Source: Plantactinospora sp. BC1
GTDB lineage: Bacteria > Actinomycetota > Actinomycetes > Mycobacteriales > Micromonosporaceae
Direction of reading: 5' to 3'
NCBI RefSeq assembly: GCF_003030345.1
Contig: NZ_CP028158.1
Span: 1,798,001-1,862,000 of the forward strand
Length of the DNA stretch: 64,000 nt
Below, in pieces: positions 21,239 to 23,752 of this stretch (positions within the stretch are counted from its first letter, which is position 1; each line of letters starts with the position of its first letter). The translations under genes were made by a program, and so were the position numbers. The notes beneath the pieces were generated by a model. That model searched no databases. It worked only from the letters and a program-made list of their open reading frames with translations, and had not been told where the DNA came from.

Positions 21239-21973
21239 TCAGCCGACCCGGCCGCCGGGCCGGTCGCCGTCGTCGGACGCGGCGGCGGCGTGGCTGCCGT
21301 GCAGCATCGCCTCGATCGCCTCCACCAACTGGTCCGCGCTCCGCAGCGGTACCGGAAAACGCAGCCGGACGTCGGAGTCGTGGCCCGGATGTTCCAGCCG
21401 GAGCACGATGCCGAACCGGTCCAGCGCCAGCGGACGGACCTGGCGTACCCCGTGCAGCCGGCGTGGCGGCACCAGCCTGGACAACCGCGCGAGCGTCTCG
21501 GGGTGGTGGTCGTTGAGATGGCAGAGCAGGTCGGCCTCGCTGTCGGCCAGCGGATCGGGCCGGGCGGCGGCGAACTCCGCCGGGTCGATCGGGATGGTCG
21601 TGTCGGCGGTGACCAGTTCGACCGTGGCCGGCTCGAGTACGGCCGGCAGCTCCGCGTCGGCGGCGCCCTCGGCCACGGTCAACCAGCCGGTGAGGGTGGC
21701 GCGGGCCCGGATCCGGTCACGAATCGGGACGGGTGCCAGATCCGTCGCCTCGACCAGTGCCGCCAGCTCGCCCGACTGGCGCAGGTGCCGGGCGAGGCAG
21801 CTTGCCGGGGGCAGCTCGACGATCAACCGTCCGGATGCCAGGCGGTGCCGTCCGATCAGCTCCGCCCGGTGTCCGGGCGTACGCAGGCTCAGCGAGCCTG
21901 CCGCGACGAGCAGCGAGTGCAGGCGTTCGGCCGGGGTCGCGGCCGGTGCGGGAGCGGGCTGGTTGCCAGACAT
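21239..21973 (-). CDS. DUF2470 domain-containing protein under an iron box
   Basis: This 244-aa soluble protein has an N-terminal split-barrel-like half (RAELIGRHRLASGRLIVELP) and a C-terminal DUF2470 domain at about 140-225 (SEADLLCHLNDHHPETLARL, GVRQVRPLALDRFGIVLRL). DUF2470 occurs at the end of HugZ/HutZ-like haem-handling proteins and in stand-alone actinomycete proteins. A GGAGG ribosome site precedes the ATG. The IdeR-type box starts 12 bases upstream of the start, so iron-dependent repression is strongly suggested. It is divergent from the S4 gene and shares its regulatory region. Confidence 0.85.
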   Translation of the reverse strand: MSGNQPAPAPAATPAERLHSLLVAAGSLSLRTPGHRAELIGRHRLASGRLIVELPPASCLARHLRQSGELAALVEATDLAPVPIRDRIRARATLTGWLTVAEGAADAELPAVLEPATVELVTADTTIPIDPAEFAAARPDPLADSEADLLCHLNDHHPETLARLSRLVPPRRLHGVRQVRPLALDRFGIVLRLEHPGHDSDVRLRFPVPLRSADQLVEAIEAMLHGSHAAAASDDGDRPGGRVG

Positions 21974-21984
21974 GACGCCTCCAG

Positions 21985-22003
21985 TTAGGTTAGGCTCACC
22001 TTA
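21985..22003. promoter_or_regulatory. IdeR/DtxR-type iron box
   Basis: TTAGGTTAGGCTCACCTTA matches 17 of 19 positions of the iron-box consensus TTAGGTTAGSCTAACCTAA. It lies in the 47-base gap between the divergent DUF2470 and S4 genes, so iron-loaded IdeR could repress both. Confidence 0.85.
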
Positions 22004-22020
22004 CACAGGAGAGATCACGG

Positions 22021-22629
22021 ATGAACCAGACACGCCCCAAGGTCAGACGCTCCCGCGCCCTCGGCATCCCGCTCACGCCCAAGTGCGTGCGGTACTTCGA
22101 GAACCGCCCCTTCCCACCCGGGCAACACGGCCGCGCACGGCGCAAGGAGAGCGACTACAAGGTCCGACTGCTGGAGAAGCAGCGGCTCAAGGCGCAGTAC
22201 GACCTGCGCGAGGGGCAACTGCGGCGTGCGTTCGACCGGGCGGCGCACCGCCCCGGCAAGACCGGTGAGGAACTCCTGATCGACCTGGAGACCCGGCTCG
22301 ACGCACTCGTGCTGCGGGCCGGCTTCGCCCGGACCATCTACCAGGCCCGCCAGACCGTCACCCACCAGCACGTCACGGTCAACGGCCGGCGCGTCGACCG
22401 ACCCTCCGCCCGGCTGCGCCCCGGTGACACCATCGCGATCGCCGAGCGGAGCCGCGACAAGACGCCGTTCCTCGCCGCCGCGGCCGGCGCACACGCCCCG
22501 GCACGCCCCGCGCCCTACCTCGAGGTCAACCTGGCGGGCCTGACCGCCCGCCTCGACCGGCTGCCGGTCCGCGCCGAGATACCCGTCGTCTGCGACGAGC
22601 AACTGATCGTCGAGTACTACTCACGCTGA
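22021..22629 (+). CDS. rpsD: 30S ribosomal protein S4 (non-zinc type) under an iron box
   Basis: This 202-aa protein is a full-length S4: an N-terminal region with [20 protein letters not shown] and [17 protein letters not shown], an S4 RNA-binding domain at about 95-160 ([20 protein letters not shown]) and the C-terminal [10 protein letters not shown]. The N-terminus lacks the CxxC zinc motif and resembles the S4 form that Streptomyces encodes outside the alpha operon. An AGGAGA ribosome site precedes the ATG. No other ribosomal gene is nearby. Whether this is the only S4 or a paralogue cannot be told from the window. The iron box upstream is unusual for a ribosomal gene. Confidence 0.93.
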
Positions 22630-22647
22630 CCGGCTCCGGGCGGCGCA

Positions 22648-22679
22648 ACGGGGGCGGCACCGAACGGTGCCACCCCCGT
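22648..22679. terminator. Bidirectional terminator hairpin between rpsD and LPMO gene
   Basis: Arms at 22648-22662 and 22665-22679 form a 15-bp stem with one mismatch, centred between convergent stops. Inner pairs would open to give a normal loop. Confidence 0.75.
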
Positions 22680-22690
22680 CACGGTTGCTG

Positions 22691-23752
22691 CTACCTGGCC
22701 GTACAGGTCAGGGTCGGTGCGGTGTTCGTGCCGTTCCAGGAACCGTTGAACCCGAAACTGGTGCTGCCGTTGGCGCTCAACGCGCCGTTGTGACCGGCGT
22801 TCGTGGCGGTCACCGATGACCCGGACGAGGTTATCGTCGCGTTCCACGAGTTGGTGATGCTCTGGCTGTTGGGCCAGGTCCAGCCCACCGTCCATCCGGA
22901 GATCGCGGCGTTGCCGGCCCGAACGGTGACCTGGGCGCCGAAGCCACCCGCCCACTCGTTCGTCTTCGCGTACGTCGCGGTGCAGCCGCCGTTGCCCGAC
23001 GGCGGCGGGGTGGTCGGCGGCGGAGTGGTCGGGGGCGGGTTCGTCGGCGGCGGGTTCGTCGGCGGCGGGTTGGTCGGGTCGCCGCCACCGCCGAAGATCA
23101 CGTCACTGCACAGGTAGTACGGCTGGTCGAGGTGGCTCGCCTGCCAGATGGTGTAGACGACGTGCCGGCCGGTGCGGTTGCCCGCGTTCACCTGCGCCTC
23201 GTACAGCCCGGTGGTCGGGTAGCTGCCGGTACGCAGCACCAGGTCCAGGTTGCCCCAGGTGAGCGGCTGGCGGGTCGGGTCGAAGCCCTGCTTGGTGATG
23301 TAGATCAGCATGTAGTCGGCACCGTGCCGGGCCCCGTCGGTCAGCGTCAGCGTGAAGTTGTTCGGCATCGGCTTCGCGACCCAGGCGCCGACCGCGTCGA
23401 GCGAGGCGTACAGCCCGCCCTGGGTACGGCCGCCGCTACAGAGCTGCCCGTCCGGGACGGCGGCCTGGTGGTTGCCGCCGACGTTCTCCCGGAACAGGCC
23501 GTTCCAGTTCCACATCGTGTTCGGGTTGGCCTGCCAGGCCTGGGCGCACATCGGGTCGGTCTGCGCCATGTTGGGGTTGAGGTGGTCGTCACCCCAGCGC
23601 TCCCAGCACCCGTAGTTCCGGGACGGCGGGTTGGTGACCGATCCGTGCGCCGAGGCCGGGCCGGCCTGGTTGATCACGACCATCGTGAGCCCGGTGACGA
23701 GTACGGCGACCGCACCGAAAATCAGACGGCGGGCTCTTCGTGCAGCTTTCAT
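22691..23752 (-). CDS. Lytic polysaccharide monooxygenase (AA10) with a C-terminal CBM2
   Basis: This 353-aa secreted copper enzyme cleaves crystalline cellulose or chitin oxidatively. The signal peptide ends at ASA so that the mature protein starts with His36 (HGSVTNPPSRNYGCW), the first ligand of the copper histidine brace. The catalytic domain runs to about 225 and includes NRTGRHVVYTIWQASHLDQPYYLCSDV; a repetitive Pro/Thr linker at about 228-252 leads to a family-2 binding module with Trp residues (WNATITSSG, FNGSWNG). The ATG at 23752 begins a standard signal peptide. Confidence 0.93.
   Translation of the reverse strand: MKAARRARRLIFGAVAVLVTGLTMVVINQAGPASAHGSVTNPPSRNYGCWERWGDDHLNPNMAQTDPMCAQAWQANPNTMWNWNGLFRENVGGNHQAAVPDGQLCSGGRTQGGLYASLDAVGAWVAKPMPNNFTLTLTDGARHGADYMLIYITKQGFDPTRQPLTWGNLDLVLRTGSYPTTGLYEAQVNAGNRTGRHVVYTIWQASHLDQPYYLCSDVIFGGGGDPTNPPPTNPPPTNPPPTTPPPTTPPPSGNGGCTATYAKTNEWAGGFGAQVTVRAGNAAISGWTVGWTWPNSQSITNSWNATITSSGSSVTATNAGHNGALSANGSTSFGFNGSWNGTNTAPTLTCTAR
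23001..23075 (-). repeat. Five 15-bp tandem repeats encoding the LPMO linker
   Basis: Five direct copies of a 15-base unit like GGCGGCGGGTTCGTC encode the PPPTN/PPPTT linker between catalytic and binding modules. Such repeats can change copy number by slippage and so vary linker length. Confidence 0.8.

Follow-up and report, generated by a model that had tools for sequence, protein, structure and literature searches.

The window, the 64-kb stretch of DNA analyzed here, contains a gene for the ribosomal protein uS4 (rpsD) and, in the short intergenic region between it and a divergent DUF2470 gene, a sequence resembling the operator of the iron-dependent repressors IdeR and DtxR. uS4 is an early assembly and fidelity protein of the ribosome. 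The locus raises the question of whether an S4 gene is placed under the control of iron, what such control would achieve, and which of the two genes the site serves.

A cysteine-free uS4 paralogue and its partner

The rpsD open reading frame of the window (22021 to 22629, plus strand) is intact and encodes a protein of 202 amino acids. It matches the S4 models TIGR01017 (197 bits, cut-off 177.2) and NF003717 (223.2 bits, cut-off 116), with both uS4 domains, the S4 N-terminal and the S4 RNA-binding domain, above the curated cut-offs. The CxxC...CxxxxC motif is absent from the protein, which is, as the original prediction had stated, an S4 of the zinc-free type, designated C- (Cys4-free) below. 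That prediction had left the number of rpsD copies to be counted; the genome holds two S4 genes, the second being a C+ gene with cysteines 9, 12, 26, and 31 (G000:C1:6028127-6028666), so that the gene of the window is a paralogue. The open reading frames flanking the C+ gene, recognized by eye, are presumably rpsK and rpoA of the alpha operon. The window rpsD is the C- paralogue outside the ribosomal operon, and the alpha-operon copy is the C+ form. Crude pairwise dN/dS values of 0.11 to 0.13 between the window rpsD and three relatives are consistent with purifying selection. Neither rpsD nor the DUF2470 gene has a match in PHROGs. Elsewhere in the genome, a weak S4-like match (L003, G000:C1:8206183-8206437; E value of 9e-4) lies in a frame with one TGA and is probably due to chance or to another S4-domain protein.

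Within its genus, the C- gene is found in one of the seven genomes searched, the window's own, and is an accessory gene there. Across the family, 207 of 300 genomes match the C- gene at an E value of 1e-60 or better, and 272 of 300 contain the C+ gene. The motif C9-C12-C26-C31 is found in 49 of the 51 C+ loci checked, the two misses being out of frame at the start, and the first 45 residues of the C- proteins contain at most one cysteine in all 204 counted. The alpha-operon S4 of two genomes, G094 and G113 (L330 and L331), matches the C+ form only from about residue 37, with the preceding stretch in another frame, and is either a broken gene or an assembly error; both genomes were tallied as C+ genomes.

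The iron box and its surroundings

The predicted IdeR/DtxR (DmdR1-type) iron box TTAGGTTAGGCTCACCTTA (21985 to 22003, assigned to neither strand) matches the DtxR/IdeR consensus TTAGGTTAGGCTAACCTAA at 17 of 19 positions and would act as an operator common to both divergent genes. The match had been the starting point of the original prediction and stands up to a chance control, in which 100 dinucleotide-shuffled versions of the 64 kb yielded no match with three or fewer mismatches. The box ends 17 nt before the rpsD ATG at 22021, which agrees with its predicted place just before the S4 start, and lies 11 nt from the start of the DUF2470 gene (21239 to 21973, minus strand). The 244-amino-acid product of the latter carries a domain of haem-related proteins (PF10615, 35.8 bits, cut-off 22).

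Throughout the 8.33-Mb genome, contained in one contig, this box is the sole match to the pattern TWAGGTWAGSCTNACCTWA at zero mismatches. Six places are found at one mismatch or fewer, compared to none for the reversed control pattern. The other five, with one mismatch each, are each flanked by at least one Peripla_BP_2, FecCD, or Lys/Orn monooxygenase gene; the presence of these families fits a working iron regulon. A single gene of the genome encodes an IdeR-type repressor, with Fe_dep_repress, Fe_dep_repr_C, FeoA, and DtxR-SH3 domains. Since the genome has an IdeR-type gene and the 19-bp box lies close to a start codon, the locus has the appearance, at the level of sequence, of a member of an IdeR/DmdR1 regulon. 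Zur control of the C- rpsD was considered as well and rejected, since the best Zur-like sites reach 7 to 10 of 15 positions of the consensus in 143 loci and in a further 39 loci.

A candidate -35 element of rpsD, TTGCCA (21963 to 21968, plus strand), lies 17 nt before TAGGTT, the candidate -10 element (21986 to 21991) inside the box. All 26 close relatives inspected, the window included, show a TTG 22 to 24 nt upstream of the box, leaving a spacer of 17 to 18 nt to a TAGGTT or TAAGGT inside it, so that the operator would sit on the candidate rpsD promoter. The TTG overlaps the DUF2470 start, and DUF2470 coding constraint could also explain its conservation. A sigma-70 consensus scan and a terminator scan of 21850 to 22720 found none. 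The ribosome-binding site of rpsD (AGGAGAGA, 22007 to 22014, plus strand) is recognized by eye, and nothing in Rfam reaches the gathering score between 21000 and 23000, which speaks against a known RNA leader in this region. Downstream of rpsD and convergent with it lies the gene of an ordinary polysaccharide enzyme, an LPMO_10 protein with a CBM_2 domain (22694 to 23752, minus strand).

Conservation of the box among C- loci

The box was scored over 250 bases upstream of the C- gene at 211 loci of Actinomycetes and called at 15 or more of 19 positions; these loci are a nonrandom sample, consisting mostly of the best-scoring matches of each search. We take the class searched to be Actinomycetes, the family to be Micromonosporaceae, and genus g49 to be Streptomyces, as judged from sequence and size. 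Dactylosporangium, Catelliglobosispora, and Glycomyces are among the counted taxa, as shown by named records that contain the same gene. The presence of a C+ gene was determined by a search with a C+ query or, for 13 g49 genomes, by a second S4 match. L059 to L073, from a search of the phylum, are S4 genes of other groups with at best 7 to 10 of 19 positions and do not enter any count; L046 and L074, which duplicate L088 and L043, were removed, and L265 is a region without S4.

Conservation upstream of orthologous genes, by which the original prediction could be judged, is found in several families. The box is present at 138 of 143 C- loci in genomes with a C+ gene (87 of 91 in family f1 and 25 of 25 in g49, the remainder in other families) and at 24 of 68 in genomes without one (14 of 38 in g49). 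Null windows of 250 bp inside the gene score 8 to 11 (204 windows), and of the 198 windows far upstream, a single one reaches at least 15 and five others score 14. The distance from the end of the box to the rpsD start codon is 8 to 50 nt at 134 of the 138 two-S4 box loci. A C+ gene in the operon, a C- gene outside it without the Cys motif, and a metal-sensor box conserved at 138 of 143 loci have, judging from the sequences, the makeup of a metal-responsive C+/C- pair.

A rule by which the box is present if and only if a C+ gene is present was dropped, as 24 of the 68 genomes without C+ retain it (14 of g49, 3 of f74, 5 of f76, and 2 of f1). Some of these genomes are complete, such as G573 in one contig. 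The DUF2470 gene adjoins the box in all 24, and the box ends 22 to 42 nt before rpsD. The box is missing from five C+ genomes (L045, L084, L106, L125, and L325). Three of these loci, L084, L106, and L125, belong to genus g23, and the gene divergent from C- rpsD is ferritin-like by Pfam at L106 and the same by eye at L084 and L125, another link to iron without the box.

A second box-like site with at least 13 of 19 positions occurs at 57 of the box loci, including L076, L078, L086, and L089. It is spaced 20 nt (33 loci), 15 nt (23 loci), or 16 nt (1 locus) from the first box, and the constancy of this distance hints that the operators serve more than a single repressor dimer pair. Five f76 loci without C+ or DUF2470 (L251, L252, L254, L255, and L257) carry box-like remnants of 12 to 14 of 19 positions before the sole S4, which look as if an operator were decaying. 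Twenty named loci, L268 to L287, stand outside the 211; of the first eight, five hold the same gene as the counted loci L028, L030, L035, L107, and L129. Among the 20, the box is present in three Dactylosporangium records, Modestobacter, Goekera, Catelliglobosispora, and one MAG and absent from 12 of 12 Glycomyces records and a Syntrophobacteraceae record.

The box in relation to the DUF2470 gene and the C+ partner

By profile search, a divergent DUF2470-like open reading frame accompanies 156 of the 162 box loci; over all 211 scored loci there are 157 such matches, every one on the strand opposite to rpsD. An early count of many box loci without DUF2470, obtained by tblastn with one DUF2470 query, is not used here, as the profile search removed most of these cases. 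Where a DUF2470 neighbor is lacking, 6 of 10 C+ genomes have the box, compared to 0 of 43 genomes without C+ (Fisher p of 9e-6, uncorrected for kinship); adding L325 to these loci gives 6 of 11 C+ genomes. Five of the six loci (L107, L128, L143, L156, and L159) have an upstream neighbor that runs in the direction of rpsD and show no recognizable divergent gene, so that the box faces rpsD alone there. The upstream genes are, by Pfam, TetR at L107, a methyltransferase at L128, and MgsA/RarA at L143, with L156 and L159 resembling L143 by eye. Roughly three lineages are represented by the five loci, of which the three in g49 are close kin. The sixth, L250, has a divergent open reading frame other than DUF2470.

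These six loci weaken the rule that the box belongs to the DUF2470 gene only. The same possibility had been set against the original prediction at the outset; it could hold in genomes with a sole C- S4 and fails at the five loci with neither a DUF2470 gene nor any other recognized divergent gene. In one sole-S4 genome (L124), a 16 of 19 box is located around -461, on the DUF2470 side and some 440 bases away from rpsD.

Kinship was taken into account by independent pairs on a FastTree tree. Over all rows, the box paired with DUF2470 gives 8:0:3 (median p of 0.008), and the box paired with C+ gives 4:0:3 (p of 0.125). For C+, rows without DUF2470 give 3:0:1 (p of 0.25, too few pairs for a test) and rows with DUF2470 give 1:0:4 (p of 1); the kinship-corrected comparisons for C+ are low in statistical power. 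The box tracks DUF2470 more tightly than it does the C+ S4, and C+ has no effect on the presence of the box among the rows with DUF2470. Since the box precedes an essential sole S4 in 24 genomes, it cannot switch S4 fully off there; the possible explanations in these genomes are incomplete repression, a further promoter for rpsD, or a box that works for the DUF2470 gene.

Proposed mechanism and rival explanations

For Thermus uS4, an Fe4S4 cluster has been assigned to the Cys site, which had earlier been modeled as zinc (PMC6555806, PMC10450194), and CxxC-CxxxxC is the pattern used for uS4 C+ (PMC10450194). The actinobacterial C+ copies have this same Cys4 spacing at 49 of 51 loci, and by analogy, their uS4 may hold an Fe4S4 cluster. 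A Cys-free spare under an iron repressor would make the same sense as the Zur-controlled spares of zinc proteins.

In the proposed mechanism, IdeR:Fe(II) would bind the box overlapping the divergent promoters when iron is sufficient and repress both the C- rpsD and the DUF2470 gene. Ribosomes would then use the alpha-operon C+ uS4, with its four cysteines holding Fe4S4 as in Thermus. As iron falls, IdeR would leave the box, and C- uS4, which has no Cys4 site, would be made together with the haem-related DUF2470 protein. The C- uS4 would support 30S assembly, save iron, and escape failed cluster loading.

That the window rpsD is an iron-sparing spare of uS4, the iron counterpart of the Zur-controlled zinc paralogues, is the best-supported reading and probably correct. 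It is based on the box, the C+/C- pair, their conservation, and the IdeR-type gene, and, by analogy with published work, on the Thermus uS4 cluster and the IdeR control of the M. tuberculosis DUF2470 operon. From these elements, we infer IdeR binding, the repression of rpsD, a cluster in the actinobacterial C+ uS4, and the incorporation of C- uS4 into ribosomes. The original prediction had offered a remodeling of ribosomes under iron limitation if the gene were a paralogue, and this branch is retained, given two S4 genes, a conserved box, and one IdeR-type gene; the likely reason, which it had missed, is Fe4S4 rather than zinc in the Cys4 uS4 of Thermus. A wider claim has about even chances of being true: many actinobacteria would swap an Fe4S4-bearing uS4 for a cluster-free uS4 under IdeR/DmdR1 when iron is scarce, and where C+ is missing (Glycomyces and most g49 genomes), the former spare would be the only S4, with the iron box often gone or moved away.

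The chief rival takes the box as the operator of the DUF2470 gene alone, with rpsD merely sharing the short intergenic region and independent of iron. The joint occurrence of the two at 156 of 162 box loci supports this explanation, and the 24 sole-S4 genomes that keep the box beside DUF2470, together with the lack of a C+ effect among DUF2470 rows (1:0:4), point the same way, as do reports that the DUF2470 operon rv3839-rv3840 of M. tuberculosis is IdeR regulated (PMC13258150) and that a DmdR1-like motif is predicted for a DUF2470 gene of S. griseus (PMC8914203). It leaves out, however, the six two-S4 loci with a box but no DUF2470, including five whose upstream gene shares the strand of rpsD, and the absence of the box from all 43 genomes that have neither C+ nor DUF2470. 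The box, moreover, ends within 8 to 50 nt of rpsD at 134 of 138 two-S4 box loci, where it should overlap the core promoter. An operator for DUF2470 alone is, on this evidence, unlikely, if by no means negligible.

Two further explanations accept the control of rpsD by iron and part from the iron-sparing reading in its purpose. The C+ protein may bind zinc or nothing, and the C- uS4 may alter ribosome assembly, fidelity, or stability under iron or oxidative stress. A 2009 study took C+ S4 as zinc binding (PMC3087516) and the Fe4S4 assignment comes from Thermus only, whereas the four cysteines fit the CxxC-CxxxxC pattern of uS4 C+ (PMC10450194) and the box, where DUF2470 is absent, occurs only in C+ genomes; this explanation appears improbable. 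Alternatively, iron would tune total S4 and hence the supply of ribosomes, which had been the second branch of the original prediction and may hold in genomes with a sole C- S4 and a box, of which there are 24. In the window's genome, however, the 3.5 kb surrounding the C+ copy of the alpha operon contain no box (best, 11 of 19), and such a tuning of supply is very improbable as the explanation of this locus.

Comparison with known systems

Chen, Roberts, and Luthey-Schulten reported in 2009 that 26 of 660 genomes contain multiple S4 genes and treated the C+ S4 as a zinc-binding protein (PMC3087516). As far as the accessible text of that study goes, no Zur site was found near S4 paralogues, including those of Salinispora, and their control was left open. 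The pairs described there, including those of two Salinispora species, resemble the present one in having C+ in the alpha operon and C- outside it; they differ in that the main text is without the word "iron," whereas an iron box is present here at 138 of 143 two-S4 loci (PMC3087516). The box is a possible answer to this question and ties the control of C- S4 to the Fe4S4 cluster at the Cys4 site of Thermus uS4. An iron-controlled S4 paralogue is described in none of the literature matches listed, which cover few subscription papers.

The DUF2470 cases of M. tuberculosis and S. griseus share with the window a DUF2470 gene behind an IdeR/DmdR1-type site; unlike here, the accessible passages of both reports mention no S4 gene alongside it (PMC13258150, PMC8914203). 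In C. diphtheriae, rpsD is likewise under predicted DtxR control, in a predicted operon from secY to rpsD (PMC524172). That gene, in contrast, is adjacent to rpsK and rpoA, eight genes after secY, and the accessible text describes no paralogue with a box of its own (PMC524172).

If the iron-sparing reading is true, the response that spares iron extends to the ribosomes themselves, translation in these bacteria could change with iron status, and a metal-sparing swap of ribosomal proteins is driven by iron instead of zinc. The closest parallel is the Zur-controlled C- paralogues, such as S14 and L31 of B. subtilis and the sets of S. coelicolor and M. tuberculosis, in which a metal-binding C+ copy is likewise accompanied by a Cys-free paralogue under a metal-sensing repressor site (PMC3087516). 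The present system differs from these in its IdeR/DtxR iron box in place of a Zur-like site and in the protein concerned, uS4, whose cofactor in Thermus is Fe4S4 and whose C- gene has a divergent, haem-related partner.
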